A stretch of DNA of 48,843 nt from NCBI GenBank assembly GCA_029057985.1, contig JAIDYR010000049.1, forward strand, positions 1 through 48,843, read 5' to 3'. Each line of letters starts with the position of its first letter. Within the stretch, counting starts at the first letter, position 1. Under the pieces are notes generated by a model. It was not told the origin of the DNA. It worked only from the letters and a program-made list of their open reading frames with translations, and made no database searches. Both the position numbers and the translations under genes were made by a program. Positions 17,413 through 46,241 of the stretch are shown in pieces. The stretch comes from Muribaculaceae bacterium. Its GTDB lineage: Bacteria; Bacteroidota; Bacteroidia; Bacteroidales; Muribaculaceae.

Positions 17413-17448
17413 CAACCTTGTCAGACCTAAGTCAGACAAATCAAGTCA

Positions 17449-27257: not shown

Positions 27258-28232
27258 ATGGAAAGTATATTGAACTTAATAGAAAGATTAAGGAATTCTC
27301 AAGAGAGTGAGTTTGAAAACATTCTGTCTCAAGCTCTCATAGATGCTAAGCCTTCATCTAATCTCCTGCGAGATTATTTGTCGGAATCTCTTATCTATAT
27401 GCGAATCAGCCTGAATCTTTGGGAGCGTGTCATCAGTGTTCTTCCGTCGTTGTTTACGATTAATGAGTTTCTGCTTCTATTGGATCAAATTGTGAAATGT
27501 ATTCAAAATAGATATCAAGAGAAGGATGAAGAGATAATTAAATTCTGTAGGAAATTAGTAATTCATGAGAATGGAGAGATCCGTATGCTAGGTCGAAAAC
27601 TCTGGGACAGTTATAAGGTGTCTAAAGGAGATGTGGAGCCTCTTGAATTTCCTCCAGAAGATCAAGTCCGTTTAATTATTTCGTTATCTCAAGATATTCT
27701 TAATCCTGAGATAAGACTCCCAATGCTTTTACAATTTTTTAATTCTGAATCGGAAACTATTCGTAAAATACTCCTAATGGGGTTGTTTGAATACACATTA
27801 AATTACTTTGGCGTTGTCAAAGAACTATTTAACTCTAATAGATTCCTTTCGTCAGATGAAAGTGTCCTTTTTACTCATTTTTTAAATAATGGAGAGAAAA
27901 GATTTAAGCTTGGAGATAGTGCTAAGGAATTGCATTCTGAGTATATGATGCCGGATGTGTATGAAGAGTGTCAGCGGGCGGAAAGGGAAATGATGAAAAG
28001 TGTATATCGTGAGGCTTCGGCCAATCATACGGATTGGTTAAGCCAATTATTTATCCGAGTTGCCTTAGCTCGTGGAGGAGGCTTCCGAAGAGAAGATAGT
28101 TCAGTCCAACCTTTAGGACATGTCAAGGTGGAAAAATTAATGCCTATGATGGCTTCATCAAAAACTCCATTAGAAGAGAGTTCTTATTTTCATAAATTGT
28201 TGAAAAATTGGAGTAAAGAAGAGACTTTATGA
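27258..28232 (+). CDS. Helical protein of unknown function (repeat-like)
   Basis: A 324-residue protein that I do not recognise. It is rich in amphipathic helices (NLIERLRNSQESEFENILSQ; FTINEFLLLLDQIVKCIQN; IRLPMLLQFFNSESETIRKIL) that suggest an alpha-solenoid, HEAT/ARM-like fold. The region around 235-290 contains a charged helix followed by LARGGGFRRED. No signal peptide, membrane segment or catalytic motif is seen. AT-rich compared with the BREX genes. It overlaps the following nuclease-like gene by four bases, so the two probably form a functional pair. Confidence 0.5.
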   Translation: MESILNLIERLRNSQESEFENILSQALIDAKPSSNLLRDYLSESLIYMRISLNLWERVISVLPSLFTINEFLLLLDQIVKCIQNRYQEKDEEIIKFCRKLVIHENGEIRMLGRKLWDSYKVSKGDVEPLEFPPEDQVRLIISLSQDILNPEIRLPMLLQFFNSESETIRKILLMGLFEYTLNYFGVVKELFNSNRFLSSDESVLFTHFLNNGEKRFKLGDSAKELHSEYMMPDVYEECQRAEREMMKSVYREASANHTDWLSQLFIRVALARGGGFRREDSSVQPLGHVKVEKLMPMMASSKTPLEESSYFHKLLKNWSKEETL

Positions 28233-29920
28233 ACAACAGAATTATTAAAGATTATTTGGAGTCACTTAAAGAAGATGACGAACTGGATTATATCTTTCCA
28301 ATCTTATTGGAAAGTATGGGATTTCAAATCCTTTCTTCTCCTAAAATTTCTAAAGGTCAACCACAATATGGGAAGGATATTGTGGCCATTGGGGATGATG
28401 AGAATGGTATAAAACACAAATGGTATTTCGAACTTAAAGGGAATGCCGCTAAGGATATTACGGATACTAATTTTTTTAAACCGGATGGTGTAAGAGATTC
28501 AATTTTAGCAGCCAAAGATGTGCCTTATCAAGATGCTTCTATTCCTGGTTTAGAAAATCTACCAACAAAGATAGTATTTGTACATAATGGTAGACTTCAT
28601 GAAAATACAAGAGCGATTCTTACCAATTTGGTAAGTAGAGAATTTAAAGAGGGAGAGTTTGAGAGATGGGATATTGATAAGCTGACGTTTTTATTTCAGA
28701 AGTACCTGTTTGATGAATGTCTTTTCCGCGATTGGGAATGCTATAAACTAATAAAAAGAATATTAGTCCAGCATGATGCCCCTGGTTGGACTACTCGCGA
28801 CATTGATCAACTGATTGAGCATTTGCTGAAGGCATGTCCTGTCCGTAAATCAAATAGTCGTATGTTGGAACTAACCATATCGTCAATGGCTCTTATGGTG
28901 TTTATGCTTTTTAGTGAGGGTAAAGAGAATGGTAATATATCCTCCGCAAAGAAGTCAATTGATAGAGTGGTACTACTTACATGGGCCTGGATTATAGAAA
29001 ATAACCTTGACACATCTAAACAGATATTAAAAAAATACTTTTCTTTGATTGAGCTCCAATTAAAGATATACGATGCTTACTTTGAGAAATTACTTCCGTT
29101 AGCTGTCCAGTATAAGGGATTGTATATGTACAATGGGATGACAACTGAAAAAGTCTGTTATCCTCTTCGTTGTTTTGAATTTATAAACGATTTTATGTAC
29201 TACTGTATCCTCAAGTTTCGTTTTGTACAAAAAGAAGATATACCTAAGTTCTACTGCGAATCCTTAGAAGCTATATTTCAAGTCATGGAAAAAAATAGCG
29301 GATTTACAATGCCTTTATTTGATACTCACTATCTAACCTATACTCTGTTATTTAAGTTGATTATGCTATGGGGTCAAAATGGCGAGAAGGATTGGTTGCG
29401 CTTTGGAAAGATAATTTCAGAGACTGTTCAGAATCTTTTTTTAAGGAAAAAGGATTTAGATATGTTGCCGGAGTTATACAATAACAGGAAAGAATTAGCT
29501 CGCAGCTTATATAAAAAGTCTGACGGATATACTGATAGTTCCTCCATTTTGCTTTTGAGAATGTTAGAGTTTGTCAGTGTAATGGGTATGGAAGACCATT
29601 ACCAGCTCTTGTCTGAACTAATAGAACAAAATCATATTATTATACAAGATTGTTATCCGATACCATCAGAGGATTTTGAGGTAAAATTATTTAGACAAAG
29701 AATGTATGATGGTTTTTCTGTAAAAACACCTATTAATATACCTCCCACCATGGATGAATTTATTAAGCAACATAGAAGAGATATCTCTACGGTTTCTCTT
29801 AAAACTTCTCTATCCCCATATTCTTTCCTCACGATAATGGCCCATTTACATTATCAGACTGATTGGTTCCCGGAATTCCTTGATCTCGGATTTCTGAATG
29901 GGAATGAAGATAATCAGTGA
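28229..29920 (+). CDS. PD-(D/E)XK-type nuclease with long helical C terminus
   Basis: A 563-residue protein. Residues 1-160 resemble a restriction-endonuclease-like domain: an N-terminal helix pair (LDYIFPILLESMGFQIL), then QYGKDIVAIG with acidic D50, and KWYFELKG with E68-x-K70, the PD-(D/E)XK signature; LPTKIVFVHNGRLHENTRAIL follows as in Mrr-like folds. Residues 170-563 are helical with no recognised domain. The gene overlaps the preceding helical protein gene by 4 bp and is followed by a 70-bp gap and the BREX promoter. A nuclease triggered by, or targeted through, the partner is inferred; no homologue is named. Confidence 0.55.
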   Translation: MNNRIIKDYLESLKEDDELDYIFPILLESMGFQILSSPKISKGQPQYGKDIVAIGDDENGIKHKWYFELKGNAAKDITDTNFFKPDGVRDSILAAKDVPYQDASIPGLENLPTKIVFVHNGRLHENTRAILTNLVSREFKEGEFERWDIDKLTFLFQKYLFDECLFRDWECYKLIKRILVQHDAPGWTTRDIDQLIEHLLKACPVRKSNSRMLELTISSMALMVFMLFSEGKENGNISSAKKSIDRVVLLTWAWIIENNLDTSKQILKKYFSLIELQLKIYDAYFEKLLPLAVQYKGLYMYNGMTTEKVCYPLRCFEFINDFMYYCILKFRFVQKEDIPKFYCESLEAIFQVMEKNSGFTMPLFDTHYLTYTLLFKLIMLWGQNGEKDWLRFGKIISETVQNLFLRKKDLDMLPELYNNRKELARSLYKKSDGYTDSSSILLLRMLEFVSVMGMEDHYQLLSELIEQNHIIIQDCYPIPSEDFEVKLFRQRMYDGFSVKTPINIPPTMDEFIKQHRRDISTVSLKTSLSPYSFLTIMAHLHYQTDWFPEFLDLGFLNGNEDNQ

Positions 29921-30235: not shown

Positions 30236-30715
30236 ATGAGCGACCAAAATATTCTTGAAATCATCCGTCTTAGGTGGGCCATCTATTATTTAGGGGCGGA
30301 AACCGGCCTTTGGCGTTCTCTTTCTGATGAGGATGTCAAGGGATTTATGGAATTTCTGTTTCCTAAATCAAGATACATTGCCCAATATAATCTGATGTTG
30401 AATGTAGTAAGAAATTCAGAACCTGTAAAGGATGTGCCGATTGGCTCTTACAGTCTTTTTAAGTTTCCCGAACAGATTGAAGAGAAGGTTCTTGACTACC
30501 TTAAGCAACACGCGGATAAAGATTACTCTCAATTGGAAGAAAGTCCGGAGATATATCTTAAACAGCTCGGAACCATCCCCAGCGATGCTAATCTGTTTGA
30601 TTCCTCTGTTGGACGTCTGGACGTAATTGGTATTAACGACATGCTGAGAATATTGGCTTATAGATACTATCTTTCCTTTACGGGAAATACTCATAATTTC
30701 CCCTACTTCGAATGA
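30236..30715 (+). CDS. brxE: BrxE-like BREX protein
   Basis: A 159-residue protein. The N-terminal IIRLRWAIYYLGAETGLWRS, followed by FLFPKSRYIAQYNLMLNVVRN (40-60) and IGSYSLFKFPEQIEEKVLDYL (69-89), follows the pattern I know from BrxE (LRL.VGYLGE....W, FPRT..LAQY, G..HLFRLPEE.E). BrxE has no established activity and is described as the first gene of type 6 BREX. Here it precedes brxA with a 4-bp overlap. The assignment is by motif memory and would need an HMM to settle. The match is full length. Confidence 0.65.
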   Translation: MSDQNILEIIRLRWAIYYLGAETGLWRSLSDEDVKGFMEFLFPKSRYIAQYNLMLNVVRNSEPVKDVPIGSYSLFKFPEQIEEKVLDYLKQHADKDYSQLEESPEIYLKQLGTIPSDANLFDSSVGRLDVIGINDMLRILAYRYYLSFTGNTHNFPYFE

Positions 30716-31479
30716 GATACAATACAAATCTAACCGCTCAATTCGCACAAGGCGCCTCATTGATAAATGAGACCTTGATACTACTTCCTGCGTATCAGGA
30801 AGGGATGTCAAGGAGGCAGTTCTCAAAGTATGTAATTGAGAACGGTCTGATGTCATCATGCACTGAGCGGAGAATTACTAATGTTGTGGAAGAGGTGTTC
30901 TTCAAACGCTTTGTCGAGCGGAATCCGGTGTTGCCGAAATGGTTGGCCACCGTTCGGGAGAAAGGATTGCTTTTGGAGGAATTCCGACAGCTTCTTATGG
31001 TGTATTGTGCCCGCGATATGGCCATATACTATAATTTCATCACAGATGTGCTTAATCCTCTTCGTCGTGAAGGGAGGAAGTCAATGGATAAAAACTATGC
31101 TTTCGAATTTCTTAAGGATTTACAGGAGGAAGGGAAAATAAACTGGAAGGAAACAGTGCATAAAAAAATATCATCCAGTCTGAATACGGCATTGAAGAAT
31201 TTTGATCAGGTTTCTTCCAAAGGAAAGATTCTCGACAGCCGCCCATCAGATTTTACCTTTCTATATTTTATTCATGAACTTCATTTTGCCGGGCTTTCAG
31301 ACGCAGCTATTGTAAATGATTCAGATTGGCAGCTATTCGGAATGACTAAGGAAGATGTTATCTCAAGAATCATGGATTTGAGTATAAAAGGAGGATATAT
31401 CGCTCAAAGTAGCGGAGATTTGATTACAATATCTTGGAACCATAAAACAATGGAGGAATTTATCGATGCGACACTATGA
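30712..31479 (+). CDS. brxA: BREX protein BrxA (DUF1819)
   Basis: A 255-residue protein matching DUF1819: YNTNLTAQFAQGASLINETLILLPAYQEGMS at the N terminus, ENGLMSSCTERRITNVVEEVFFKRFV, then EFRQLLMVYCARDMAIYYNFITDVL. BrxA is a small helical, NusB-like DNA-binding protein of BREX. It overlaps brxE by 4 bp and brxB by 14 bp, so the operon is tightly coupled. Nothing unusual in length or sequence. Confidence 0.88.
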   Translation: MRYNTNLTAQFAQGASLINETLILLPAYQEGMSRRQFSKYVIENGLMSSCTERRITNVVEEVFFKRFVERNPVLPKWLATVREKGLLLEEFRQLLMVYCARDMAIYYNFITDVLNPLRREGRKSMDKNYAFEFLKDLQEEGKINWKETVHKKISSSLNTALKNFDQVSSKGKILDSRPSDFTFLYFIHELHFAGLSDAAIVNDSDWQLFGMTKEDVISRIMDLSIKGGYIAQSSGDLITISWNHKTMEEFIDATL

Positions 31480-32047
31480 AGAAAAAATAGACCGTGCCTT
31501 GGATTACCTCCAATCGCCGGGACTGCTCAACGCCACCGGTGACCATCCGGTCTGCTATGTGACCTACGATGTGGCCGATGCCGTCAGGATTCAACGTATG
31601 ATTGACACAGATATCCGTGCAAAGGCGGCTCATGTCGGCTTTGATATGTATTTGGTTTCGCTAAAGGATATAGTGTCTGACTTCATAAAGAATCATGATT
31701 ACTATGAAACGTGGGCAATGGAAGAGGACATCAGCGAGGAAGAGATTTTTCAAAGCATAAGTCAGGCGTTGCAGGATAACGATAGTTGGACCTCTGATAT
31801 CGACCCTATTTCCGAAGCTATCCTGACAAAGCAGGAGGAAGTCAAGAGGATGGGTAATCCCGTACTCGTATTTCATGACCTTGAATGGCTCCATCCCTTC
31901 GACCGAATAGGGAGAATAGAGGCCTTGATATATAAGCGCATCCAAGTGCCGATGCTTATCCTTTACCCCGGAGAGTCGCAAGGGAACGCACGCACATTTC
32001 TAAATATCTATCCCATGGACGGGAATTACCGCTCTAAGAATTTTTGA
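31466..32047 (+). CDS. brxB: BREX protein BrxB (DUF1788)
   Basis: A 193-residue protein matching DUF1788. It has CYVTYDVADAVRIQRMIDTDIR, a central acidic helix region, PVLVFHDLEWLHPFDRIGRIEALIYKRI and the terminal LILYPGESQGNARTFLNIYPMDGNYRSKNF, the latter being the family's most typical segment. BrxB is a core BREX component of unknown biochemical role that may bridge BrxC and PglZ. Start overlaps brxA by 14 bp. Confidence 0.9.
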   Translation: MRHYEEKIDRALDYLQSPGLLNATGDHPVCYVTYDVADAVRIQRMIDTDIRAKAAHVGFDMYLVSLKDIVSDFIKNHDYYETWAMEEDISEEEIFQSISQALQDNDSWTSDIDPISEAILTKQEEVKRMGNPVLVFHDLEWLHPFDRIGRIEALIYKRIQVPMLILYPGESQGNARTFLNIYPMDGNYRSKNF

Positions 32048-32049
32048 AC

Positions 32050-35000
32050 ATGAAGATACAGGAACTATTTGACGACGGCAAGAAACTCGACCGCAAGATA
32101 GAGAGCGTCGTGACCTTTGCCGACAAAGATACCGATGACCTCAAAAAGGAAATCAACGAATATGTCGTTACCGATAGGTTGAAGAACAGCTATCATACTG
32201 TTGTTGACCGTATGCAGGATGGATTTTCCGAAACGGCCAACGAAGTAGGTATATGGGTGTCGGGCTTCTATGGCTCCGGTAAGAGTTCATTTGCAAAATA
32301 CCTCGGTTTCTCTTTTGATTCCTCTCTCATTGTTGATGGAGTTACTTTCGGTGAAAAACTGCTCAACCGTATCGGAGAGACGGAAGTGACTCAAATGCAC
32401 AAATCTATCCTCAATCGCTTCAATCCAATGGTGGTGATGATCGACCTTGCCACGCAGCATTATACCGGAAAGACCATGCGCGTCTCCGATATCATATTTT
32501 TCGAGACACTCAAAGCACTCGGCCTGACCGTAAGCAAGGATGCCAAGATCATAGAGTTTAACGCCCTTTTGAAGGATTTAGGCAAATATGATGAGTTTGT
32601 TACTCTGGTGCGTGATCGTAAGAGGAAGGATTGGGAGGTGATTCAAAAAAATGACCTCTTAGCTAATCTTGTGGCCGACGAACTGGCCCCTGTCATTCTC
32701 CCTGATTATTTCCATTCCAAGGGGGAATTCAAATCTTTGAAGATTGATGCACTCGTATCGGAGGATGACCGGATAAAGCGCCTCGTCAATCTCATCAAGC
32801 AGATAAAGGGGAAGGAGAAAGTGCTGTTCATTCTGGATGAGTTGGGTGCCTACGTATCCACCAATGAAGATCTGATTTTCAATATGCAGGGCTTCATGCA
32901 GAACATCAAGTCAATATTCCGAGGAGACGTATGGGTAATAGGCACAGCTCAGCAAACCCTTACAGAGGACAATCCACAGGCGCAGCTCAATTCTGACAAG
33001 CTCTTTACCCTCGATGCCCGATTCCCGATAAAGATCGATATCGAGGCCGACGACATTAAGGAAATCATCACCAAGCGTCTTTTGGGCAAGTCAACAAGAG
33101 GGACAGACCGGTTGAAGGATATGTTCAAGTCAAATGAGGGCTCAATAAAGATGAACACTAAACTTAGTATCGACAATGCTCGATCACGGTACATCCAGAT
33201 TCCGGAACCACAAAAATTCGCGGACCTTTATCCCTTCCTTCCGGTGCATATAGACATCCTCATGGCTTTACTTCAAAAACTCGCAAGCCGTACAGGTGGT
33301 GTTGGCCTTCGTTCTGTAATCCGTCTTATCCGTGATATACTGGTAGAAAATCATTTGGCTGAGGAGAGCGTCGGTTTGCTCGCTACTCCTGCGCAGTTCT
33401 ATGATGTGCTTCGTTCCGATATGGAGAAGAATAACGACTATAAGGAGATAGTCATAGCAGCGAATCAGGCAATAAATCGTTTTCAGGATAGCCATTTGGC
33501 CATAATGATATGTAAGGCAATTGCAGTGATGCAGATTCTTGATGACTTCCCCTTGACATTCGACAATATCTGCGCTCTTCTTTACAATGAAATCGGTAAA
33601 GATACCGACAAAGGAAAAATCCGCGGACTGATTGAGGAAATCAAATCCGCTCCAGGGATAACACTTGAGGAGGTTGATGCCCAATACCGTTTTATGACCA
33701 ATGCCATTCTTTCCGTAAAGGAAGAGCGTAACCATCTGACTGTTTCCGATCAGAAACGTGACGAAATTCTTAAGGAACTGGTCAAAGACCTTCTTACTCC
33801 TGCTCCGCAAGTACAGATTTTCGGAGCTAAGACCATAAAACCGACTGTGGAACTTTCCATAGGCAGGCGCACTCAGAACATCCATTCAGGCGACCATCTG
33901 AAAATCAATTTCAGTTTTGTGGAAGCCTCAGACTTCGAGAATGTGGAATCGCGTCTAAGAAGCGAGAGCACGGAGAACGCAAACGAAAAGACCATGTATA
34001 TGGTCTGCACTCTTCCTTCCCCGATTGAAGGTTTGCTCAACGACATCGCCCGGGACAATGCTATCGTCAGTGCGCATATCAACGACAACAATAAGGAGGT
34101 GCGTGATTATCTCAAGAGTCAGGAGGAGGATGCGAAGACGAAGAAACAGGAGGTGAAGCGTCTGCTCGGTCAGGCTTTGGGCAACAGTGAGAGTATCTGG
34201 CGAGGCCAGACAGAGGCGGTCAATGCTACAACCTACGTCTCCAAGAGCCTTAAGAAATTCGCGGAAAAGACTTTCGAGAAATTCTGTTACGCACCTAAAT
34301 CCATGGGAACTAACGCCGTGAAGGATCTATCAAAGTATGACAACTGGGCTTCCCTGCCTGAGAGTCTGAATCCTATGGGATTCGTAAAGGCTGACGGCTC
34401 GATTGACTCCGGTTGTGACGCTCTGCGCGAAGTTTATGACTATATATCGTTCAAGGATCCCGATGGCAACAAGCTCCTATCCTATTTCGAGGCCGCTAAG
34501 TTCGGATGGGCAAAGGATACTACTCGTTATATAGTAGCTCTTCTCCTCAAGGATAATAAGATCATTGTCCGTGCCGGAGCCCAGAGTTTCAAGATGCTCA
34601 CAGATAAGGCTGCAGAGGCCATGAAGAACAATACTGTGTTCGGTCATGTGGGCCTGTCGCGCAATACGGAGAAACAACTTACCCCGGCCGAGTGCTTGAA
34701 AGCCAAAAAAGCATTGACCACACTTTTCAATCCGGGCAACATAGCTTTGACAGTCGATAGCATAGCCAAAGCTTCATTCAAAGCCATGACTGCAGGAGGC
34801 TTCAATGATAAGGCTGAGACATTGTGCCGTAAATTTCATGAAGTCGGTCTTGCCGGAGAGGATAAGGTGGAGAAGGCGATTGGATTTGCGAAACGTATCA
34901 TCACAAGCGAGGGTGTGGATGGTCCGACTCTTTTTGCTCAAAATCCGGAGTGTGCCGACACGATGAAGTATGTGATAGATGTGGATAAGGCAGAAGTCCT

Positions 35001-35706
35001 TCCCACGTTGCAGACCATCCGCCGTCGATTCAGCGAAATTGACCAGCTCACCAAACTCCCTCAGTTGAGGGATTTCTTTAAAGTGGTTGAGGATCTGCAG
35101 GAGGTTTTCCGCAATCTTCTCCAGGATTCGGAAGTGGTTGGCAATAAGTCGGAATATCTCGATATCGAGAGTCAGTTAAACGCTGCTGTCCGCAATGCCT
35201 GCATGGATTTCTGTGAGAAGCAGAACGTAGAGATAGAGAAAGAGATTGAAACATTGGTTTCCGGATATGACCTCTCGAAGCTCACCGATGAGCAAAAGGA
35301 GGCGATAGAAAGGAAGGGAGAAAGAGTAAGACTGTCGGAAGGCAACTGTTCGCTTTCTGACCTCAAGGCCGCCATCAATGAGTATAACCTGGCCTTCAAT
35401 CCCGGCGGTCCAATCAAGTATGGTATCAAGACCCAGATTGAGGATTTCCTCGCGGCCAACGAGCCTCCAACGGATTACGGAAATGACTCAACGGGAAATG
35501 AGCAATCCTCCAATGATGCAGATTCTTCCAATAATTCCAATTCCTCCAATGATTCCAATGACAACTCGACTTCCACTCCGAAGAAAAAACCGGTAAAGGT
35601 GAAGAGGAATCTTAGCAAGGCCGGTCTGAAGGATTTTATCGAGGAATTGAGAATGGCTATGGATGAGATGGCTGATAATGACACTGTTGAATTTAATCTT
35701 GAATAA
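32050..35706 (+). CDS. brxC: BREX ATPase BrxC
   Basis: A protein of about 1218 residues. Start: the frame opens with a TTG at 32044 overlapping the brxB stop, but ATG 32050 begins MKIQELFDDGKKLDRKIE, so I use it. Walker A is GFYGSGKSSF (residues about 72-81) and the Walker B/sensor region is KVLFILDELGAYV (about 257-269). The large AAA+/ORC-like N-terminal half is followed by a long helical region. Residues about 1140-1180 are a low-complexity Asn/Ser/Asp linker before a KKKPVKVKRN patch and an acidic tail. BrxC is essential for BREX exclusion and host methylation in studied systems. Confidence 0.92.
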   Translation: MKIQELFDDGKKLDRKIESVVTFADKDTDDLKKEINEYVVTDRLKNSYHTVVDRMQDGFSETANEVGIWVSGFYGSGKSSFAKYLGFSFDSSLIVDGVTFGEKLLNRIGETEVTQMHKSILNRFNPMVVMIDLATQHYTGKTMRVSDIIFFETLKALGLTVSKDAKIIEFNALLKDLGKYDEFVTLVRDRKRKDWEVIQKNDLLANLVADELAPVILPDYFHSKGEFKSLKIDALVSEDDRIKRLVNLIKQIKGKEKVLFILDELGAYVSTNEDLIFNMQGFMQNIKSIFRGDVWVIGTAQQTLTEDNPQAQLNSDKLFTLDARFPIKIDIEADDIKEIITKRLLGKSTRGTDRLKDMFKSNEGSIKMNTKLSIDNARSRYIQIPEPQKFADLYPFLPVHIDILMALLQKLASRTGGVGLRSVIRLIRDILVENHLAEESVGLLATPAQFYDVLRSDMEKNNDYKEIVIAANQAINRFQDSHLAIMICKAIAVMQILDDFPLTFDNICALLYNEIGKDTDKGKIRGLIEEIKSAPGITLEEVDAQYRFMTNAILSVKEERNHLTVSDQKRDEILKELVKDLLTPAPQVQIFGAKTIKPTVELSIGRRTQNIHSGDHLKINFSFVEASDFENVESRLRSESTENANEKTMYMVCTLPSPIEGLLNDIARDNAIVSAHINDNNKEVRDYLKSQEEDAKTKKQEVKRLLGQALGNSESIWRGQTEAVNATTYVSKSLKKFAEKTFEKFCYAPKSMGTNAVKDLSKYDNWASLPESLNPMGFVKADGSIDSGCDALREVYDYISFKDPDGNKLLSYFEAAKFGWAKDTTRYIVALLLKDNKIIVRAGAQSFKMLTDKAAEAMKNNTVFGHVGLSRNTEKQLTPAECLKAKKALTTLFNPGNIALTVDSIAKASFKAMTAGGFNDKAETLCRKFHEVGLAGEDKVEKAIGFAKRIITSEGVDGPTLFAQNPECADTMKYVIDVDKAEVLPTLQTIRRRFSEIDQLTKLPQLRDFFKVVEDLQEVFRNLLQDSEVVGNKSEYLDIESQLNAAVRNACMDFCEKQNVEIEKEIETLVSGYDLSKLTDEQKEAIERKGERVRLSEGNCSLSDLKAAINEYNLAFNPGGPIKYGIKTQIEDFLAANEPPTDYGNDSTGNEQSSNDADSSNNSNSSNDSNDNSTSTPKKKPVKVKRNLSKAGLKDFIEELRMAMDEMADNDTVEFNLE

Positions 35707-35709
35707 GAA

Positions 35710-38700
35710 ATGATAACAAAAGCTGCACGTTCAAGACTTCAATCGTTCGTAAATGATGCCAAGGATCTGCTTACAGATTTTGTGAAGCAGTCACTCCAAT
35801 CATCATACGGTATATGGGAGGACGGTGCTATACGTCCTGTCCACGATTTGCCTACCGATAACACTGAAATCATCCATACGGCAAGGTTGTTGCGTCAACG
35901 CATCGACCATATAAAAAATACTCTGCCAGGAGAATTTGAGGAGGGTTCCGTAGATGATAAAAAGCAGACTGCAAAGGCTATCAGTCAGCTCATAGCGGAG
36001 CAGGCTTTCACGCTCCTCAACCGTATGGCAGCTGTCAAGATGGCCGGAGAGCGAGGAATCATCCAACCTTCTATTTTCGGAGGATTTGAATCGGTCGGTT
36101 TCTCTCAATATGACGCTGTGACAGGGGGCGGGGCGGTCGGCACTACCTTCGAGCGTTACACATGGTTTATCTTCTCTATATTTGACGAACTATCAATTGA
36201 ATTGCCCGCTGTTTTCAACCGGTATAGTCCTTACGGTTTGCTGTGGTTCGATGAGATGACACTTCTCAAATTCTTCAATCTCATAAACGCAGAGGATTTA
36301 TCCGCATATTATGATTCGGCAACCGGAGAAACAATCAACTTCTGGCAGGAGGATGAAACCTTGGGCTGGATTTTCCAATATTACAACTCACTGGAGGAAC
36401 GCCGCAAGATGCGTGAGGAATCCACCAAGCCACGCAACAGCCGCGAGATGGCAGTCCGGAATCAGTTCTTCACTCCCGATTATGTCGTGGAGTTTCTGAC
36501 TGACAACAGTCTCGGACGTATATGGTGGGAAATGACCGATGGTAAATCCACGGCCATAGAGGAGAAATGCGAATACCTTATTCATCGTCCGGATGAGAAA
36601 TTCGAGAAGCGAGAAATTAAGGAACCTGCTGAATTGACCCTTCTCGACCCTACCTGCGGCTCGATGCACTTCGGCCTTTATGCCTTCGGAGTGTTCGAAA
36701 CCATCTACATGGATGCATGGGACAATCATCCTGATCTTTTGAAGGAATATAAATATGCGCTGACACGCGAAGAGTTTCATAAGATTGTTCCAAGACTGAT
36801 ACTGGAGCATAACATTTTTGGCGCGGAGATTGATCCACGTGCGTTACAGATAGCTGCTGTTTCCCTCTGGCTTCGAGCGCAGAAATCATGGGATGAGCAG
36901 AGTGTGGAATCGGCAGATCGTCCTGTAATCCGTAAGTCCAATCTTGTGCTTGCCGAGCCAATGCCCGGCAATAAGAAACTGTTGAGCCAGTTGACCAAAG
37001 AGATGGATGCTCCGATGCGGAAGCTCATTAAGACAGTTTGGAAAGAGATGTCTATTGCAGGAGAGGCCGGTCTGTTGCTTAAAATGGAGAAGGAGATTGA
37101 AGCGGATGTCGCCGATATTAAGAAAAACTGGCATAAGTATCGTGTGGCAAACGAATATGTGCTTGAGCTGACGGAAGAAGATCGTGAAAGCAATGAGGCT
37201 GTAACACGTGAAATTGAGCGAGTAAAGAAACTCAACAAAGAGGAATTCTTCGCAGAATTGAAGGATAATCTCACTAAACGCATTACAGAGCTATCTGAAC
37301 AGATGCCGGAAAATGAGGGTTACGAGAATGCCCTTTTCTCGGAGGATGCTGCTCGCGGTTTAGCTTTCATCGAACTTTGCATGCGTCGTTTTGATGTGAT
37401 AGTCATGAATCCTCCCTTCGGTGAAGGGAGTGAGGCATCGAGTCCGTATCTTGACAAGAATTATGATGCGTGGTGCAAGAATCTTGTCTGTGCCTTCTTT
37501 GACCGTATGCAAGAGATGCTTTCAAAAGGTGGTAAACTCGGAGCTATCTTTGATAGAACTGTGATGATAAAATCCAGCTATGAGGCCTTCCGGCGTAAGA
37601 ATCTTTGTGGCTATATTTCAGCTTGTGCCGATACGGGTTGGGAGGTTTTGGAAGCAAGTGTGGAAACCTCAACGTTTGTTATTGAAAAGGAATTTATAAA
37701 AAATAATGGTATTTTTATTGATGTCTTAGACGTATCTCAAAAGGACAAGAAGTTATTAGATAGAGTTCAGAATATTAATAAAGGAATAATAGATAGAAAA
37801 TTATATTCTGCATCTTCTGAAGAATTTGCCTATCTACCAAATAGTATAATTGGATACTATTTCGATAATGATGTCCTTCATACGTTTCAAAATCCTAACA
37901 TAGAAAATAGGGGATTTTATGCGATGCAAGGTATAGGATTTGTATCTCCTATTCATTTTAGACTATTTTATGAGATAATTGATGCTTCCAATTTCAAATT
38001 AATGTTTAATGGAAGTAATTATTCACTCTTCTATTGCTGTTACTATGATTGTACATCGTGGGAGAATAATGGTCAAAATGTGAAGGCGCATAAATCCTAT
38101 AGAAGTTCAAATTTAAATAGCCAATTTAATGCTGGGGTTTGTTATGGAGAACGTGGAGATATTTTGGATATGCAGATTTTTAAAAAAGACATGTTCTTTA
38201 CTAAAGAGGGTCTTGCCATAACTGAACCTAATAAAACCAATTCTTTGGCTCTTAACTCTATGTTTAATTCGATTTATGGGCAGTTTTTTTTAAATTTGTA
38301 TTCCGGACAGCATAAATGGACTGGATATACAAATCTTCTTCCTATGCCCGACTTCGAGACTAGACAGGAAGAGATTGAGCATATTGTAAATGAGATTATC
38401 AAGATTAAGCGTCACTGGTTCTCCCTTGATGAAACGAATCTTGAATATCATGGACTTATCAATCAGTTGGGGATTACAAATAACTTGAATGAGGCTTTCG
38501 ATAGGATGCAGGAAAGGCTGACCTGTGACTATGAGCGTTATCAAGAGTTGGTTAAGGCAAACGATGACCTATGGATGGATTTGGCTGAAATAGATCGAGA
38601 CAGTGATTTCCGTCAGACTCTCAATGACTATAAGTCACGTCGTCCTTACGAGGAATTACTTTCGATTGATAAGGCCTCAGATAAGAATATAATCAACCGG

Positions 38701-39702
38701 AAAATATTAACTTCTGAAATTCTTCAGGAGTTAGTTGGTATCGTCTTTGCTCGTTGGGAAATGGCTTACGCCAGCGGTGAAGCAACGATTCCGGAATTTG
38801 GAGATGTGTTTGATCCGTTGCCTTTTATGCCGGTAGTTCATTTTGATGGTTTTGTAAAAGAATTTTCCTTACCTGTAAATGAGAAAGAGAATATGCGGGC
38901 AAAATGGGGAGGAAGAATAAGTAAGTATATACCACATGAGACGATTAGTGGTATTCGTCTGGCTGGAGACAAATATAAAAATTTGACAGATTTAGTACGT
39001 GAAGCAATGTCTTATCTTTGGGGTGAACATGCCGCAGACATAGAAGCAGAGATGACAAAACTATTGGGCGTTGATTCACTACGAGATTGGTTTGATTCTC
39101 CAAATGGTTTCTTCGATTATCACTTCATGCGTTATACTAAGAGTCACCGAAAAGCTCCAATCTATTGGCCTATCTCTACTGAATCGGGAGAGATTTTCTG
39201 CTGGATATACTATCCGACACTCAATGCAGATACTCTAAAGCGAGTGACGCTGATGCTAGATGAGGAGATTGAACAGCTTCGTAGCCGGCTCAATCAGACA
39301 AGCGATACAGTTGCTGCCAATCGCCTTAATCAGAAGATTGACTCAATGCTGAACATGAAGAAGGAGATAACTAATGTCATCGCACTTCCATACGTTCCCA
39401 ACCATGATGACGGTGTGCCCGTCACTGCCGCTCCTTTGCGCAATCTCTTCGCCAACCGCAAATGGCAGAAGGAATGTGAGGAGAACTGGAGGAAACTCTC
39501 TTCCGGTGAGTATGACTGGAGTCATCTTGCATTCTCAATCCGTCCGGCGGAGGTGCGCAATAAAGCGAAGAAGGATTGGTGCATGGCTCTGACCCACGGA
39601 TTGGAGGAGATTTGTGAGAACAAGCCGAAAGAGAAGAAGGCTCACAAATCGAAGAAAGAGAAAGAACCGAAAGCGGGTAAGATAGATTTTGATTTCGATT
39701 AA
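35710..39702 (+). CDS. pglX: BREX adenine-specific DNA methyltransferase PglX
   Basis: A 1330-residue protein. N6-adenine methyltransferase motifs: FTPDYVVEFLTDNSLG (motif X-like), LLDPTCGSMHFG with D313-G317 (motif I), and NPPF at 567-570 (motif IV, in VIVMNPPFGEGS). The C-terminal third is helical, ends with a Lys/Glu-rich tail, and has ANRLNQKIDSMLNMKK. PglX marks the host DNA on one strand at a non-palindromic site. The stretch 37690-38340 (residues about 661-877), where target recognition is expected, is markedly more AT-rich than the DNA on both sides, a sign of specificity-domain exchange. Spacing to brxC is 3 bp. Confidence 0.93.
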   Translation: MITKAARSRLQSFVNDAKDLLTDFVKQSLQSSYGIWEDGAIRPVHDLPTDNTEIIHTARLLRQRIDHIKNTLPGEFEEGSVDDKKQTAKAISQLIAEQAFTLLNRMAAVKMAGERGIIQPSIFGGFESVGFSQYDAVTGGGAVGTTFERYTWFIFSIFDELSIELPAVFNRYSPYGLLWFDEMTLLKFFNLINAEDLSAYYDSATGETINFWQEDETLGWIFQYYNSLEERRKMREESTKPRNSREMAVRNQFFTPDYVVEFLTDNSLGRIWWEMTDGKSTAIEEKCEYLIHRPDEKFEKREIKEPAELTLLDPTCGSMHFGLYAFGVFETIYMDAWDNHPDLLKEYKYALTREEFHKIVPRLILEHNIFGAEIDPRALQIAAVSLWLRAQKSWDEQSVESADRPVIRKSNLVLAEPMPGNKKLLSQLTKEMDAPMRKLIKTVWKEMSIAGEAGLLLKMEKEIEADVADIKKNWHKYRVANEYVLELTEEDRESNEAVTREIERVKKLNKEEFFAELKDNLTKRITELSEQMPENEGYENALFSEDAARGLAFIELCMRRFDVIVMNPPFGEGSEASSPYLDKNYDAWCKNLVCAFFDRMQEMLSKGGKLGAIFDRTVMIKSSYEAFRRKNLCGYISACADTGWEVLEASVETSTFVIEKEFIKNNGIFIDVLDVSQKDKKLLDRVQNINKGIIDRKLYSASSEEFAYLPNSIIGYYFDNDVLHTFQNPNIENRGFYAMQGIGFVSPIHFRLFYEIIDASNFKLMFNGSNYSLFYCCYYDCTSWENNGQNVKAHKSYRSSNLNSQFNAGVCYGERGDILDMQIFKKDMFFTKEGLAITEPNKTNSLALNSMFNSIYGQFFLNLYSGQHKWTGYTNLLPMPDFETRQEEIEHIVNEIIKIKRHWFSLDETNLEYHGLINQLGITNNLNEAFDRMQERLTCDYERYQELVKANDDLWMDLAEIDRDSDFRQTLNDYKSRRPYEELLSIDKASDKNIINRKILTSEILQELVGIVFARWEMAYASGEATIPEFGDVFDPLPFMPVVHFDGFVKEFSLPVNEKENMRAKWGGRISKYIPHETISGIRLAGDKYKNLTDLVREAMSYLWGEHAADIEAEMTKLLGVDSLRDWFDSPNGFFDYHFMRYTKSHRKAPIYWPISTESGEIFCWIYYPTLNADTLKRVTLMLDEEIEQLRSRLNQTSDTVAANRLNQKIDSMLNMKKEITNVIALPYVPNHDDGVPVTAAPLRNLFANRKWQKECEENWRKLSSGEYDWSHLAFSIRPAEVRNKAKKDWCMALTHGLEEICENKPKEKKAHKSKKEKEPKAGKIDFDFD

Positions 39703-39717
39703 TAGGGGAACGACAAA

Positions 39718-42198
39718 ATGGATATACAAGGTTTTATAGTAGATAGCTGGCTATCGCGTCTTTCCGACAATCATCCCATCCTTGCGGTCTATGACCGAGA
39801 GGGAATCTATCATGAATTGTTGGACAGAGCCGAGGAGATGGGTATGATAGTGGTTGATACTACTCTCCAACCGATGATAGCCTACGATAAAATGTCGGAG
39901 GCTTGGGATGCGGTAAAGGAGAAAGCGGAAACACGGGTACTGATTTACCGCAACATCCAACGGCCAGCTGATGACACCACTCGCCGCGAAGACCCTTACT
40001 ATTCTTTTGCCCAAACCGGCCGATTCTTCCCTGAAGGGGCTCAAGACCAGCTTGAGCATATCTGCCATAGATTTCTTCCTACAAAGACTAAAGAGATTGA
40101 CACCCTCAAACGTAACGGCACACTTACTTTTGAGAATGTCAACAATCTTCAGGAGGATTCAAAATATCCGGCTTTGACCGCATTGACATCCGGCAATAGT
40201 CTCATAGAAATTGTTGTCGGTCTATTGGGATTGGAGACAGTGACGTCCCTTAGTTGGCTTCCGGAATGGGGACGCCTGGTCAACCAGCATTTCCCCGGAA
40301 TGAACACCACCGGTACACCGAATCTGAAAGAGGTGCAGGAGCGGATGTGGACGTATCTTCTTTTCAGTGAGTTCGTACTCGACCTTCCCGGTGTTCTGCC
40401 GGATTCCTTGTCGAGTGTGCCACGTGCCGGAGACTCACAGAAAACCGCCATTTACGACATCACCAAGCGTATCCGCAACTCCGTGGATATGCGCGACAAC
40501 TATGTGGAATCAGCCAATAAGGTAGCAAATGACCTGAATCTTGAATCACTCTTTTACGCTGCCGATGATTTAGGCGATATAGTGACATTCGCTTTTGAGA
40601 ACCGGGTGGAATATGATCGCCTGGCCAAGCTCCTTGAACTGCGCCAGATTCGCGATGCGGAGGAGTTATGGGAGAAAAACAGAAATTCAATCTGGTATAC
40701 CGCTGACAGGGAATCAAAGAATTTCTGGGATATTTCCAAAGCTGCGATAGACCTTTTCAAAGCAATCGAGAGAGGTGTGTCCTCTGCTCAAAACCGTAAT
40801 GAGATAATAGATTGGTATGCCAGGGATGGGTATAAGGCTGATTCTGCTTTCCGTCGTTTCCTGACATTATCCAAGCAGAATCAATATCCTCTAAATCAGA
40901 TTGCCAAGATAACCGATTTGGTGGATAATTCCTACCGGAATTTCAGCGACCGAACCGTTAGACTCTATCAGGAATTTACCAAGAACGATGGTTTTACGAT
41001 TGGTCAGACGGTGATGAACATAGGAGCCTTCGACCGACTCATCCTTCCTCTTCTCAAAAAGAGGAAACGGGTGGTGATGGTGATGGCCGACGCATTCCGC
41101 TATGAGATGGGTATGGAATTCCTATCCATGATTAAGCCACGCTTCGAGAAAGCGGAATGTGTGGCTTCAATAGCATATTTGCCTACGGTGACCCGTTGCG
41201 GTATGGCGGCTTTATTGCCGGAAGCGGAGACTTCACTTGAGTTGAAAACCGTGGATGGAAAACTCCAGCCATTCATCGGAGGAAAGATAATCGATTCTCC
41301 CGAAAAACGCGTCGAAGCAGTCAGGGAGGCCATCGGTGACTCCGTAAAGGTCAAGGATACGCTGTTAGAGAATTTCGTACCATCGGAGATAACCGGTGAT
41401 GTTCAATTGCTCATAATACGGAGCTTCAGGATTGACGGAGCCTGTGAAAGTAGTGGTGCGCAAGGTCTCGGCACCGTGGAGTTGGAAGTGCGAAGCCTAA
41501 TCCAGCAGTTGGAGAGGCTGAGGAATCTTAAATTCGATGATGTCTTTATCTTCGCCGACCACGGATTCATGCTTCAGTCAGGTTTCCGAGCAGGAGACAA
41601 GATAGAGAAACCGACGGGGAATGACATTGTTCTTTCCGAACGCCGTTGCATTGCGGGCAACCTGAATCAATCTGAAGACACTCTGCAATTAACTCCCTCA
41701 GAATTGGGAATCGCTGCCGATTTTCCAAAGATTGCTTTTGCCAAGAACTTCGGAGTGTTTGAATCAGGGAAAGCCTATTTCCATGAAGGACTTTCTTTGC
41801 AGGAGAATATTGTGCCGATCGTGCATGTTGTCCTCTCGAAAGAGAAGAAAGAGAGAAGAGGAGCAGCTTTTAGTCTTGATTACAAGGGACAGACTTCCGG
41901 AACAGTCAGGATCCAGCGGCCTCTTATTGGAGTGCAGGCAAATACTGCTGAATTATTTGGTGATGCTTTACGCGTGAAGATGGAAATCCGTAATGCAGCC
42001 GGGTCTATCGCCGGAGCCCCAGTTGATTCCGACTATTACGATGAGAATACCAGCATTCTATCACTTCCGGCTGCTGAGAAGATTAAACAGCCCATTGAAC
42101 TGATGGAAAATCTGATCGGAGACATAGTTATAACTCTTCTTGATCCTGATAGCAATGTAACTCTTGCTTCACTTCTTCTTAAAACAGACTTAAATTAA
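39718..42198 (+). CDS. pglZ: BREX phosphatase-fold protein PglZ
   Basis: An 826-residue protein. The alkaline-phosphatase-superfamily core is in the second half: RVVMVMADAFRYEMGMEFL with metal ligand D458, the region TVTRCGMAALLPEAE, and VFIFADHGFML with D614 and H615. The N-terminal 400 residues are helical, as usual for BREX-1 PglZ. The C-terminal beta-rich segment (SGTVRIQRPLIGV ... VTLASLLLKTDLN) is also typical. It acts with BrxB, BrxC and PglX; its physiological substrate is not established. It follows pglX by 15 bp and abuts brxL. Confidence 0.92.
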   Translation: MDIQGFIVDSWLSRLSDNHPILAVYDREGIYHELLDRAEEMGMIVVDTTLQPMIAYDKMSEAWDAVKEKAETRVLIYRNIQRPADDTTRREDPYYSFAQTGRFFPEGAQDQLEHICHRFLPTKTKEIDTLKRNGTLTFENVNNLQEDSKYPALTALTSGNSLIEIVVGLLGLETVTSLSWLPEWGRLVNQHFPGMNTTGTPNLKEVQERMWTYLLFSEFVLDLPGVLPDSLSSVPRAGDSQKTAIYDITKRIRNSVDMRDNYVESANKVANDLNLESLFYAADDLGDIVTFAFENRVEYDRLAKLLELRQIRDAEELWEKNRNSIWYTADRESKNFWDISKAAIDLFKAIERGVSSAQNRNEIIDWYARDGYKADSAFRRFLTLSKQNQYPLNQIAKITDLVDNSYRNFSDRTVRLYQEFTKNDGFTIGQTVMNIGAFDRLILPLLKKRKRVVMVMADAFRYEMGMEFLSMIKPRFEKAECVASIAYLPTVTRCGMAALLPEAETSLELKTVDGKLQPFIGGKIIDSPEKRVEAVREAIGDSVKVKDTLLENFVPSEITGDVQLLIIRSFRIDGACESSGAQGLGTVELEVRSLIQQLERLRNLKFDDVFIFADHGFMLQSGFRAGDKIEKPTGNDIVLSERRCIAGNLNQSEDTLQLTPSELGIAADFPKIAFAKNFGVFESGKAYFHEGLSLQENIVPIVHVVLSKEKKERRGAAFSLDYKGQTSGTVRIQRPLIGVQANTAELFGDALRVKMEIRNAAGSIAGAPVDSDYYDENTSILSLPAAEKIKQPIELMENLIGDIVITLLDPDSNVTLASLLLKTDLN

Positions 42199-42207
42199 TT
42201 GACAGAA

Positions 42208-44376
42208 ATGGACAGACTCGACATAAAATTAAACGAAGCTTTTCCCGGAAAGGTAGTCAGAAAAGACCTCCTGCACGACTTGCGCAAAACATCCAACGTG
42301 CCATCATTTGTATTGGAATTCTTCCTGTCAAAATACTGTGCATCCGAAGATCCAGAGGAGATTGAGGAGGGGAAGAAGGCTGTGCAGCAGACTATAGAGA
42401 AACACTATGTTCATAGCGATGACTCCAATCGCGCTCAATCAATGGTTGAGCAGAAGAACCGTCATAAGTTTATCGATAAGATTCATGTGCGCTATGTGGA
42501 GCGAGAGAAACGTTATTGGGCCGAAATGGAGAATTTCGGTTCTAAGCGTATTGCCATCAATCCTCGTTTCTATCAGGAGAATGAAAAACTTCTGGAAGCT
42601 GGTGTTTGGGCGGAGATCACTCTGGCGTATAATGAAGTCGAAGAGGATGATTATGCTTTCTACGTCGAAGATCTGCGTCCCATCCAGATTGCACATTTTG
42701 ATGTGGAGAGATTCAAAAAAGGTCGTGAAGCCTTTACAACTGAGGAATGGATTGATGTGCTTATCAGGAGTATAGGAATAGATCCCAAATGGCTGGAGGA
42801 ACGTTCCCGGCATCTAAAAGGAGATAAAGATGGAAAGCGATTGAAATATCATATCCTTTCCCGATTCTTGCCGATGGTGCAAAATAATTACAATAGTATT
42901 GAATTAGGAGGTCGAAGCACAGGCAAATCTTATTTTTATGCTGAATTCTCTCCATATTCAACATTGTTATCAGGAGGGCAGGCTTCTACTGCTACACTCC
43001 TTTACAACAATCAACGTAAACAGGTAGGAGCTGTAGGATTTTGGGATACTATCGCATTTGATGAAGTAGCAAATATGAAAATCAAGGATGCCGACACTAT
43101 CCAGATTATGAAAGACTATATGGCGAATGGTCGTTTCTCCCGTGGAACATCCGTGACCGCCTACGCATCTTTTGCCTTTGTAGGTAACTTCGATCTGAAT
43201 ATTCCGACAATAGTCAACAGCTACGACCACGACCTTTTAGCGACACTACCCAAGGCATTCGATTTAGCCGTAATCGACCGACTCTTCAATTATATACCCG
43301 GTTGGGAGATTCCGAAAATTGATGAGGAGTCTTATACAACCAATTATGGCCTGATAACGGATTACTTGGCAGAATATTTGGCTTATGCATTCAAACATAG
43401 CAGTGAATATACCGCCATTGTGCGAGAAATGCTTAAGAAGGGAGATAATATTGAGGGTCGTGATGATCTTGCATTGCAAAAAACTATCCTCGGCTTCGTA
43501 AAACTACTCTGGCCTTCCGGCAGACCAACACCGGAAGAATTCGATGAAGTGGTGGAATATGCGCTTGAAGGGCGCCGCCGTGTAAAAGAGCAACTTAACA
43601 AGCGGAAGCCGGATGAGGAGTATGCGCGTATAGATATGTCATATATCAACAGCAAAGGGGAAAAAGTGGTGGTCTATTGTCCTGAAAGCAAATATTCCGA
43701 GGCAACGCAAAATCCGCGCAGACAGCCCGATGTTGAAGTGCGTGTCGATCCTGAAATCACAAAGGATATAGATTCCCAGCCTCCTGTAAAGAAACGTCGT
43801 ACAAGAATCTCCCCTACGGATAAAGTCGAGAATACACCGGTTGCTGAAGATCCCACAAAACAATTCGAAGGAGATGAACCCAAACCAGGACGAAAGGAAT
43901 TAATGCACGGTGATATCGGTTATGATTACGAGACTCTTTACAAAGACTATCTCAAAGGGGCGAAAGTGATTCAATTAGAGGAGCCATACCTCTCCATGCG
44001 TTATCAGATGGAGAATCTGACACGTTTCGTGGAGATGCTTATAAAGATAGGCGACTGCCGTTCCTTCACAATCTACACCAAGCCTTGTGATCGACCCGAA
44101 GATACGGAAAGAGTGCGTCAGCAGCTCCAGCAGTTGAGTGACACCATCGCCGACATGGAGACCACTGACATGCGCATAGACTTCAAATTCGACGGGACTA
44201 TGCACGACCGTTGCATCCGTACCGATACCGGATGGCGCATAGATACAGGTCGTGGCCTCCATATATATCAGAATCTCAATCCTGACCGTGAGCGTACCAA
44301 TCCCTTCCAGATGGGTACCTACGACCTATCCCTACGTCCAACACATTCCACAACTATTACTTATACTAAGATTTAA
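42208..44376 (+). CDS. brxL: BrxL-type AAA+ protein with C-terminal MIT_C (MITD1-like) domain
   Basis: A 722-residue protein (ATG 42208; a TTG directly after the pglZ stop would add 3). Residues 1-225 hold the BrxL N-terminal region ([35 protein letters not shown]). Walker A is [11 protein letters not shown] (234-244) and Walker B [12 protein letters not shown] (277-288). Residues about 490-560 are a charged linker. The C-terminal 150 residues (43918-44373) are not a Lon protease: [52 protein letters not shown] and [13 protein letters not shown] line up with the PLD-like C-terminal domain of eukaryotic MITD1 ([62 protein letters not shown]). The canonical Lon Ser-Lys dyad region is absent. 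Confidence 0.85.
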   Translation: [722 protein letters not shown]

Positions 44377-44382
44377 CCAAAT

Positions 44383-45507
44383 ATGGCAAAAAACCATCAC
44401 AAGGAAGCATACGATGAGGGTACCCTAACTAAGCTTGATATTTTTCAGGCTTATGCAGAGGCATGGTTAGGAATTTGGTCTGTTACTACCAAAATGAAGG
44501 TAACAGATCTTTGGATATGGGATTTCTTTGCTGGCCCCGGAAAGAGTGTGATAGGACAATACGGAAGTCCTTTAAGAATTTTAAAAGTAATTGAAGGACA
44601 TGAATCCAGAATTACACAAAATGGGATTAAAATCCATGTGCGATTTAATGATAAATCCAAATCGAAGTATCGTAGTCTTATCTGTAATGTTGAATCTTAT
44701 GTTCAATCATCTCTGGCATTGTCTGCCCTAAAGTCAAAAGGATTATTCGACGTAGAGTATTATAATTCTGATTTTGGAGTTCTGTTTAAAGAGGTTATTC
44801 CAACTTTTGGGAAGGCTCCGGCTCTTATGTTTCTGGATCAAAACGGAGTAAAATATATTGGAAATGAATATCTTTTACCTTTATTGAAATCGAGACTTAC
44901 AGATTTCCTCTACTTTGTCTCAGCTTCATATTTTGCGAGATTTTCTTCCCAACCGGAATTTATAAAAAACGTCCCATTTAAATGGAATCCTGATAAACCG
45001 TTTAATTTCATTCATCGTGAAGTTATTGGGTATGTACGTGCTAAGATTCCACAGGGCTCAAGAATGCGTGTGTACCCTTTCAGCATTAAGAAAGGATCAC
45101 GAATCTATGGACTGCTCTTTGGAGCTTCTCATGTCCTGGCAGCTGAGAAATTTCTTGAAATTGCTTGGAAGGAAAATAGATTAAACGGTGAGGCCAATTT
45201 TGATATTGATGAAGATGCTGACAAACGGCAGGATTGTCTTTTTGAGGAATTTAGAACTTTTACAAAGATTGAAAAATTCGCAAAAGACGTAGAAATTGCA
45301 GTACGGGCATTAGAAGTAAAAAACAACCATGAAGCATATTATTATGCTGTAAATAATGGTTTTCTTCCAAGGCATATAACTTTTATACTCAAGAATCTTA
45401 AAAAAAGTAGAGTGATTGATTACGAAGGAAATTCTCCTCGGGTCTCTTATAAGGAGGCCTATAAGTTTGATCCATCCAAAGGTTTGCTTTTATATAAAGT
45501 AAAATGA
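44383..45507 (+). CDS. tcmP: Three-Cys-motif partner protein TcmP
   Basis: A 374-residue protein. HHKEAYDEGTLTKLDIFQAYAEAWL followed by LWIWDFFAGPGKSV (residues 43-56) and GSPLRILKVI are the signature of TcmP. The D47-FFAGPG run resembles a methyltransferase motif I. The mid part (PALMFLDQNGVKY, a DPxG-like loop) fits a methyltransferase-type fold. Its function is unknown; it is named for regular pairing with a three-cysteine protein, which follows here with a 4-bp overlap. It starts six bases after brxL, so it belongs to the BREX operon. AT-richer than brxL, suggesting separate acquisition. Confidence 0.85.
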   Translation: MAKNHHKEAYDEGTLTKLDIFQAYAEAWLGIWSVTTKMKVTDLWIWDFFAGPGKSVIGQYGSPLRILKVIEGHESRITQNGIKIHVRFNDKSKSKYRSLICNVESYVQSSLALSALKSKGLFDVEYYNSDFGVLFKEVIPTFGKAPALMFLDQNGVKYIGNEYLLPLLKSRLTDFLYFVSASYFARFSSQPEFIKNVPFKWNPDKPFNFIHREVIGYVRAKIPQGSRMRVYPFSIKKGSRIYGLLFGASHVLAAEKFLEIAWKENRLNGEANFDIDEDADKRQDCLFEEFRTFTKIEKFAKDVEIAVRALEVKNNHEAYYYAVNNGFLPRHITFILKNLKKSRVIDYEGNSPRVSYKEAYKFDPSKGLLLYKVK

Positions 45508-46241
45508 GTGCTACAAGTATAGAATGGACTGATGAAACTTGGAATCCTGTAACCGGTTGTAGTAAGCAATCGGAAGGATGTGCGCATTGTTATGCGGAAG
45601 CCATGTCTCATAGGCTTAAACTTATGGGAATACCAAAATATACCAATGGCTTCTCCATAACTTTGCATCCGAATACTCTTTCAGAGCCTCTTTCTTGGAA
45701 AAAACCGAGGAATATATTTGTATGTAGTATGAGTGATCTTTTCCATGAAAAGGTTCCATTTGAATTTATCGATCGTGTCTTAGATTCCATAAGAAAGACT
45801 CCACAGCATAGATATCAGCTATTGACAAAAAGACCCGAAAGAATGGTTGAGTATTTTTCTACTCGTTTAGTACCAGATAATGTATGGGTTGGGACTACTG
45901 TAGAAAGCAATTTATATAAGTTTCGAATAGATATTCTAAAATCCATTAGAGCTAAAGTACATTTTCTATCCTGTGAACCGCTCTTGGGACCTTTAGATGA
46001 GCTGGATTTATCAGGTATAGAGTGGGTGATTGTTGGGGGTGAAAGTGGTCCTAATGCGCGGAAGATGTTGTCAAAATGGGTTAAGAGTATTAAAGAACAA
46101 ACATCGAAGTTTAATGTGCCTTTCTTCTTTAAGCAATGGGGTACGTGGGGACCAGATGGGATTCGGAGATCTAAGAAAAAGAATGGTAAACTCTTTGAAG
46201 GGGCCGTTGTGCAGGAAATGCCAAAAATAATGTCAAAATAA
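45504..46241 (+). CDS. DUF5131 (phage Gp37/Gp68-type) three-cysteine protein
   Basis: A 245-residue protein. SIEWTDETWNPVTGCSKQSEG then CAHCYAEAMSHR gives C19, C26 and C29, the three-cysteine motif that likely binds an iron-sulfur cluster in a radical-SAM-like fold. IFVCSMSDLFHEKVP, HRYQLLTKRPERM, NVWVGTTVES, FLSCEPLLGP and WVIVGGESGPNARKM follow in the order usual for Gp37/Gp68 proteins of phages and defence loci. Reaction unknown. It overlaps tcmP by four bases, is the last intact gene of the BREX run, and is followed by gene debris. Confidence 0.85.
   Translation: MSATSIEWTDETWNPVTGCSKQSEGCAHCYAEAMSHRLKLMGIPKYTNGFSITLHPNTLSEPLSWKKPRNIFVCSMSDLFHEKVPFEFIDRVLDSIRKTPQHRYQLLTKRPERMVEYFSTRLVPDNVWVGTTVESNLYKFRIDILKSIRAKVHFLSCEPLLGPLDELDLSGIEWVIVGGESGPNARKMLSKWVKSIKEQTSKFNVPFFFKQWGTWGPDGIRRSKKKNGKLFEGAVVQEMPKIMSK

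Follow-up and report, generated by a model that had tools for sequence, protein, structure and literature searches.

The BREX (bacteriophage exclusion) locus in a 48,843-nucleotide stretch of Muribaculaceae DNA (contig JAIDYR010000049.1; the whole analyzed stretch is referred to here as the window) closes with a brxL gene (42208..44376, + strand; recognized by Pfam and PADLOC) whose 722-residue product, P0001, ends in a MIT_C domain of predicted phospholipase D (PLD)-like fold and not in a Lon domain. This settles the nature of this BrxL ending. We think it probable that P0001 acts as a BrxL ring on DNA with a tethered single-motif PLD-type nuclease, two such domains pairing to hydrolyze the DNA that the ring holds.

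The domain order of P0001 is that of BrxL up to its C-terminal part (all features on the + strand). Pfam finds BrxL_N at residues 10–141 (42235..42630, E 4.7e-43) and BrxL_ATPase, the AAA+ core, at residues 151–475 (42658..43632, E 3.8e-107). Within the core, T238, G239, K240, and S241 are invariant in 22 aligned rows and lie in a segment that we take to be Walker A (residues 234–241, 42907..42930), while D280, D285, and E286, also invariant in 22 rows, lie in what is presumably the Walker B region (residues 280–286, 43045..43065). A flexible linker (residues 507–555, 43726..43872; predicted local distance difference test score below 50 in the predicted structure) precedes the MIT_C/PLD-like domain (residues 571–721, 43918..44370), which scores 117.9 bits against a cut-off of 25 and covers profile positions 1–142. 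The Pfam scan of P0001 found no Lon family, Lon_C included, and no N-terminal MIT domain of the kind in MITD1, at E ≤ 0.1; Lon_C was detected in two BrxL controls. Among solved structures, Acinetobacter BrxL (PDB 8EMC) aligns with residues 3–482 only, and human MITD1 matches the C-terminus (E 3.5e-18 and 6.3e-18). The predicted structure of this C-terminus has the PLD fold, its top Z scores going to MITD1 and then to SauUSI, the NgoAVII R-protein, PLD3, PLD4, TDP1, NucT, BfiI, and Nuc, among others. Thus, the first-pass annotation was right that this BrxL ends in a MIT_C/PLD-like domain instead of Lon and that the match to the MITD1 domain runs along its whole length: the Pfam result, the structure matches, and the Lon-ended controls rule out a Lon protease, and the Pfam, solved-structure, and predicted-fold matches rule out a chance likeness to MITD1. 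The PADLOC BrxL model PDLC02508 pairs residues 1–721 of P0001 with profile positions 1–694 of 698, so proteins of this full length were already among those behind the model.

The domain carries an HxR(x)4D motif (H666, R668, and D673; 44203..44226) at the HKD position of PLD enzymes, with R replacing K. To count its conservation, we used 130 bacterial rows (165 frames with a match, less fragments and duplicates), of which 114, many of them close kin and none identical, are BrxL proteins with MIT_C; the other 16, unscored as BrxL, include some that are merely cut short. Among the 114, H is present in 113, R and W in all, and the G and L of the second half of GRGL in all. Seven residues beyond H, 94 rows have D, 18 have N, and two have S; human MITD1 has N. 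Because this position varies, the published "HRD" motif is, as judged from these sequences, better written HxR(x)4[D/N]. An alignment of 49 bacterial HxR rows with GRGL (alignment A2) has ten invariant columns, all ten identical in MITD1; P0001 itself has substitutions (D to E, R to S, D to H, and C to T) in four nearly invariant columns.

The proper comparison for this ending is with a Lon-like domain that lacks an active site. As described in parts of PMC10164562, Acinetobacter BrxL assembles on DNA with ATP, shows no evident Lon active site, and uses its C-terminal domain to join two rings tail to tail at the equator of the ring dimer; passages of PMC12839542 likewise report that the Ser-Lys dyad of Lon is missing from the Lon-like domain of ordinary BrxL. 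The expectation of an outcome distinct from a "protease-type BrxL" therefore started from a wrong premise, and the contrast is between an inactive Lon-like C-terminus and a PLD-like one. According to sections of the same survey (NAR 2026 gkag035, PMC12839542), 1030 of 2913 type-1 BREX taxa have a BrxL ending in an "HKD-endoDNase" with HRD, an activity that is a prediction there, and an earlier report of the variant is credited to Li et al. 2025. We take P0001 to be this variant on the grounds of position, motif, and frequency as given in the survey's main text: both have the BrxL N-terminus, the AAA+ core, and a PLD-type C-terminus with H-R-D replacing Lon. The window locus differs in having brxE, which those sections give as exclusive to type 6 in an earlier classification. 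MITD1, MIT_C, PF16565, and ESCRT (endosomal sorting complex required for transport) are all absent from the survey's main text; a passage of PMC12715929 counts PF16565 among the components of BREX, and one piece of such a gene is labeled "MIT C-terminal domain-containing protein" in the PLSDB gene table. We conclude that the PLD-type/MIT_C ending is an already known, common variant of the BrxL family, to which we add the N at the third motif position in 18 of 114 rows and the relationships described below.

Our own counts agree that this ending is no rare oddity. Across 395 genomes of the window's phylum, BrxL_ATPase occurs in 43 and MIT_C in 30, and MIT_C lies within 600 bases downstream of 25 of 46 long BrxL_ATPase matches (57 were listed, 11 partial or sub-cut-off rows being left out). 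Both C-terminal types proposed for BrxL homologs are thus found, MIT_C in these and Lon_C in the two controls. Among the 21 matches without MIT_C, where the Lon_C check covered G210 and G382 only, eight are open frames of 477–503 residues; two of these (G412 and G442:C151) are probably cut short, because they stand at contig ends and have cores that fall among the MIT_C rows. MIT_C was found in 20 of 200 near relatives of the window, above the cut-off in seven of 398 genomes of the phylum of G594, and in one of 246 genomes of one archaeon's phylum (genome G593 itself), in a search not aimed at Asgard archaea; 50,697 phage records gave no match. In another scan, the 12 of 240 above the cut-off is an overcount, with nine rows at 55 bits or more. 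Weak matches (about 20–25 bits, profile positions 57–127) are in part false: L191, L203, and L205 look like ABC transporter ATPases, a likeness that we presume from familiar motifs.

We found that MIT_C endings fall into separate groups in a tree of the BrxL core (BrxL without its C-terminus). P0001 and 17 others form one group, M (SH-like approximate likelihood ratio test support 99), apart from the other MIT_C-ended BrxL proteins; two members, L053 and L082, are one record from two collections, and the label M was first drawn from a tree of the C-terminal domain, before the core tree. L050, whose C-terminus is Lon-like and whose genome bears brxE, adjoins M in this quick tree (branch 81), with a long-branch warning exactly at that join. 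A BrxE match was found in six of ten genomes with M-type BrxL versus one of 20 others, the one being the genome of L050. Five of the six have BrxE and brxL on one contig, BrxE lying 12–20 kb upstream. For the sixth (G595), as for the matchless G584, G594, G596, and G1196, less than 12 kb of contig is left upstream of brxL. In two plasmid relatives, an annotated BrxE gene comes first, brxL is the last of the named BREX genes, and additional genes stand between them. Of note, brxE, which also accompanies brxL in the window, recurs with M-type BrxL, although the earlier classification assigns it to type 6 only.

From what the analysis shows (how the domains are ordered, a predicted PLD fold, a motif that is conserved, no Lon, and the lineage), we infer the following course for ring loading, pairing, and cleavage. 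The N-terminal and AAA+ parts would assemble as a ring around DNA, by analogy with Acinetobacter BrxL; the flexible linker would tie this ring to the single-motif PLD-type domain with its HxR(x)4D; two such domains would pair; and the pair would cleave the DNA that the ring encircles. Dimeric action is common among PLD nucleases with a single motif. P0001 would in this way bring its own nuclease where ordinary BrxL has an inactive Lon-like dimerization domain. We favor DNA cleavage for the following reasons: MIT_C is present without Lon_C, the predicted fold is that of PLD proteins such as SauUSI, NucT, and Nuc, and H and R are near-invariant; Acinetobacter BrxL is described as a DNA-borne ring dimer with its C-terminal domains at the equator (PMC10164562, in part); the survey names the variant HKD-endoDNase in the sections cited (PMC12839542); and distant MIT_C members adjoin ATPases that match NsnB, another defense context. 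Thus, of the proposed "membrane-associated or phosphodiesterase-like" effector, the phosphodiesterase half gains from the PLD fold, the HxR(x)4[D/N] motif, the DNA-ring core, and the HKD-endoDNase label, and the membrane half comes out weaker.

The same fold could serve without catalysis, as a phosphate-binding and dimerization module that substitutes one for one for the Lon-like domain and joins two BrxL rings. The Acinetobacter C-terminal domain does just this without a protease motif (PMC10164562, as described in part), the K-to-R replacement and the alternation of D and N at the motif's third position would be in keeping with it, and L050, next to M in the core tree, carries a Lon-like domain where M proteins have MIT_C. 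We nonetheless regard this alternative as doubtful, because the near-invariant H and R of the 114 BrxL rows are more than we judge a dimer surface to need, and the 49-residue linker, disordered in the predicted structure, does not suggest a rigid joint between rings. That the domain instead brings BrxL to membranes, coupling DNA sensing to the membrane, seems very unlikely to us, judging by domain content: its likeness to MITD1 in fold and sequence is high, and membrane binding is reported for the MITD1 PLD fold (according to the cited title of Hadders et al. 2012), but the remaining domains of P0001 are those of a DNA-binding ring. DNA cleavage is the likelier activity. Some enzymes among the PLD-fold matches of the domain take their names from lipids, DNA, or other substrates, which would suit a suicidal effector that hydrolyzes a small phosphodiester or RNA; here, too, fusion to a DNA-encircling ring points to DNA, and we give this possibility very little weight.

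The kinship with human MITD1, which alone stands for the eukaryotic side in our MIT_C comparisons and trees, is closest with group M. BLAST aligns 141 residues of MITD1 with L083 at 51.1% identity and with L170 at 50.4%. In a single alignment, the median identity of MITD1 is 46.4% (32.1–51.1) to 28 M rows and 34.8% (27.3–39.9) to 90 other BrxL rows, and that between M and other BrxL rows is 35.2% (22.9–47.9); MITD1 is thus closer to M than M is to other MIT_C-ended BrxL. P0001 has the lowest value of the M rows (32.1%) and by this measure is a divergent member. For the domain trees, rows at least 78% identical to a kept row were removed (82 of 131 kept, MITD1 included), as were the fragment L079 and four very long rows (L019, L021, L077, and L078), and later trees also omitted L018 and L020. 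The bacterial side is undersampled, since the pattern used for the contig scan passes over M rows that have F or Y after GRGLD, and 80 of 271 relatives were kept. MITD1 groups with exactly the M rows in the domain trees, at 100/100 (22 rows) and at 100/98 (25 chosen M rows with 14 chosen others), several forks inside M being without resolution in the latter. Approximately unbiased (AU) tests rejected neither a sister position of MITD1 to M (p 0.418, 0.21, and 0.213) nor its placement as an outgroup of every bacterial row (p 0.384), and rooting with Menshen-like rows failed because the branches were too long. The sequences therefore place MITD1 on the M side of the tree, with nested, sister, or even outgroup positions all compatible with the AU tests.

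We tentatively propose, and hold it somewhat less probable than its opposite, that the MITD1 C-terminal domain descends from the PLD-type effector of a brxE-linked BREX BrxL sub-lineage and may retain a phosphodiesterase site, the latter because MITD1 has all ten columns invariant in A2. As M and the other rows span several bacterial phyla, we infer that a passage from bacteria into eukaryotes is simpler than the reverse. Instead of BrxL itself, the source could be a bacterial domain that is mobile, since the M-side rows L089 (MIT_C only in Pfam) and L093 are unrecognized as BrxL. MITD1 (PDB 2YMB and 4A5Z), a human protein of cell division, differs from P0001 in having an N-terminal MIT domain, which is reported to bind ESCRT-III, no BrxL core, and N at the third motif position. 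The suggestion that this protein bears on a prokaryotic origin of MIT_C thus finds backing in the identity and trees that link MITD1 with M, less so in P0001 itself, which is divergent. If MITD1 did come from a phage-defense effector, its PLD fold would gain an origin and a testable activity. In the open-license literature searched, as far as its accessible text goes, a BREX–MITD1 link is stated nowhere that we found: MITD1 with BREX returned only an extracellular-vesicle cancer paper, judged by title and abstract start, and MITD1 with horizontal gene transfer returned nothing.

The BREX genes lie on the + strand in the order BrxE family (30236..30715; NF033447, 77.2 bits, cut-off 40), brxA (30712..31479; Pfam, PADLOC), brxB (31466..32047; Pfam, PADLOC), brxC (32044..35706; PADLOC, and NF033441 at 600 bits), pglX methyltransferase (35710..39702; Pfam, PADLOC, NCBIfam), pglZ (39718..42198; Pfam, best PADLOC model PDLC02561), and, last, brxL. 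The six type-1 core genes are all present, preceded by the BrxE family gene, and the NCBIfam type-1 PglX score is 484.4 against a cut-off of 500. With its BrxL_N and BrxL_ATPase domains and its operon with the adjoining pglZ plus brxA, brxB, brxC, and pglX, the gene is the BrxL component of a type-1-like BREX locus that also bears brxE.

Just upstream (27258–29920, +) is an Olokun-like pair, with OloA weak (1.1e-06) and OloB strong (3.4e-99), so that the stretch looks like a defense island. A capP/RmrA-like protein is encoded at 22282–22995 (+; PADLOC capP 3e-19). Directly after brxL (44383–46241, +) come genes for a Three-Cys-motif partner, TcmP, and for a DUF5131 protein (weakly a radical S-adenosylmethionine (SAM) mobile pair A), with PADLOC matches to PDC-M30A and PDC-M30B/M41B. 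A tyrosine-integrase-like gene (Phage_int_SAM_5, Arm-DNA-bind_5) lies at the contig end (47471–48790, −), and the sole tRNA detected, tRNA-Ser (17326–17413), is far from it. The island may be mobile. On the IMG/VR contig L166 (8692–10962, −), a phage tail protein (Phage-tail_3) is encoded some 2.3 kb past an M-type brxL, so some M-type BREX loci may sit in prophages. L084 has a 1525-residue frame that runs from a PglZ-looking part through a masked stretch (N) into BrxL, and the fusion may be an effect of masking only.

Three further loci (L018, L019, and L020) are Menshen-like pairs of genes, one for an AAA ATPase and one for a MIT_C protein that stands alone. Both ATPases tested (L018 and L019) match NsnB of Menshen, with the candidate PDC-M55A outscoring NsnB in L018, and two of the three stand-alone proteins tested (L018 and L020) match PADLOC NsnC weakly (1.8e-05 and 3e-08). 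Unlike P0001, NsnC stands alone and has no BrxL core, and its similarity is low; Menshen and NsnC together were not found in the open-license literature. Finally, a 585-residue protein of L022 (1153–2910, −; row L021) has a MIT_C match in two stretches, S at the third motif position, and a Fer4_12/radical SAM protein beside it.
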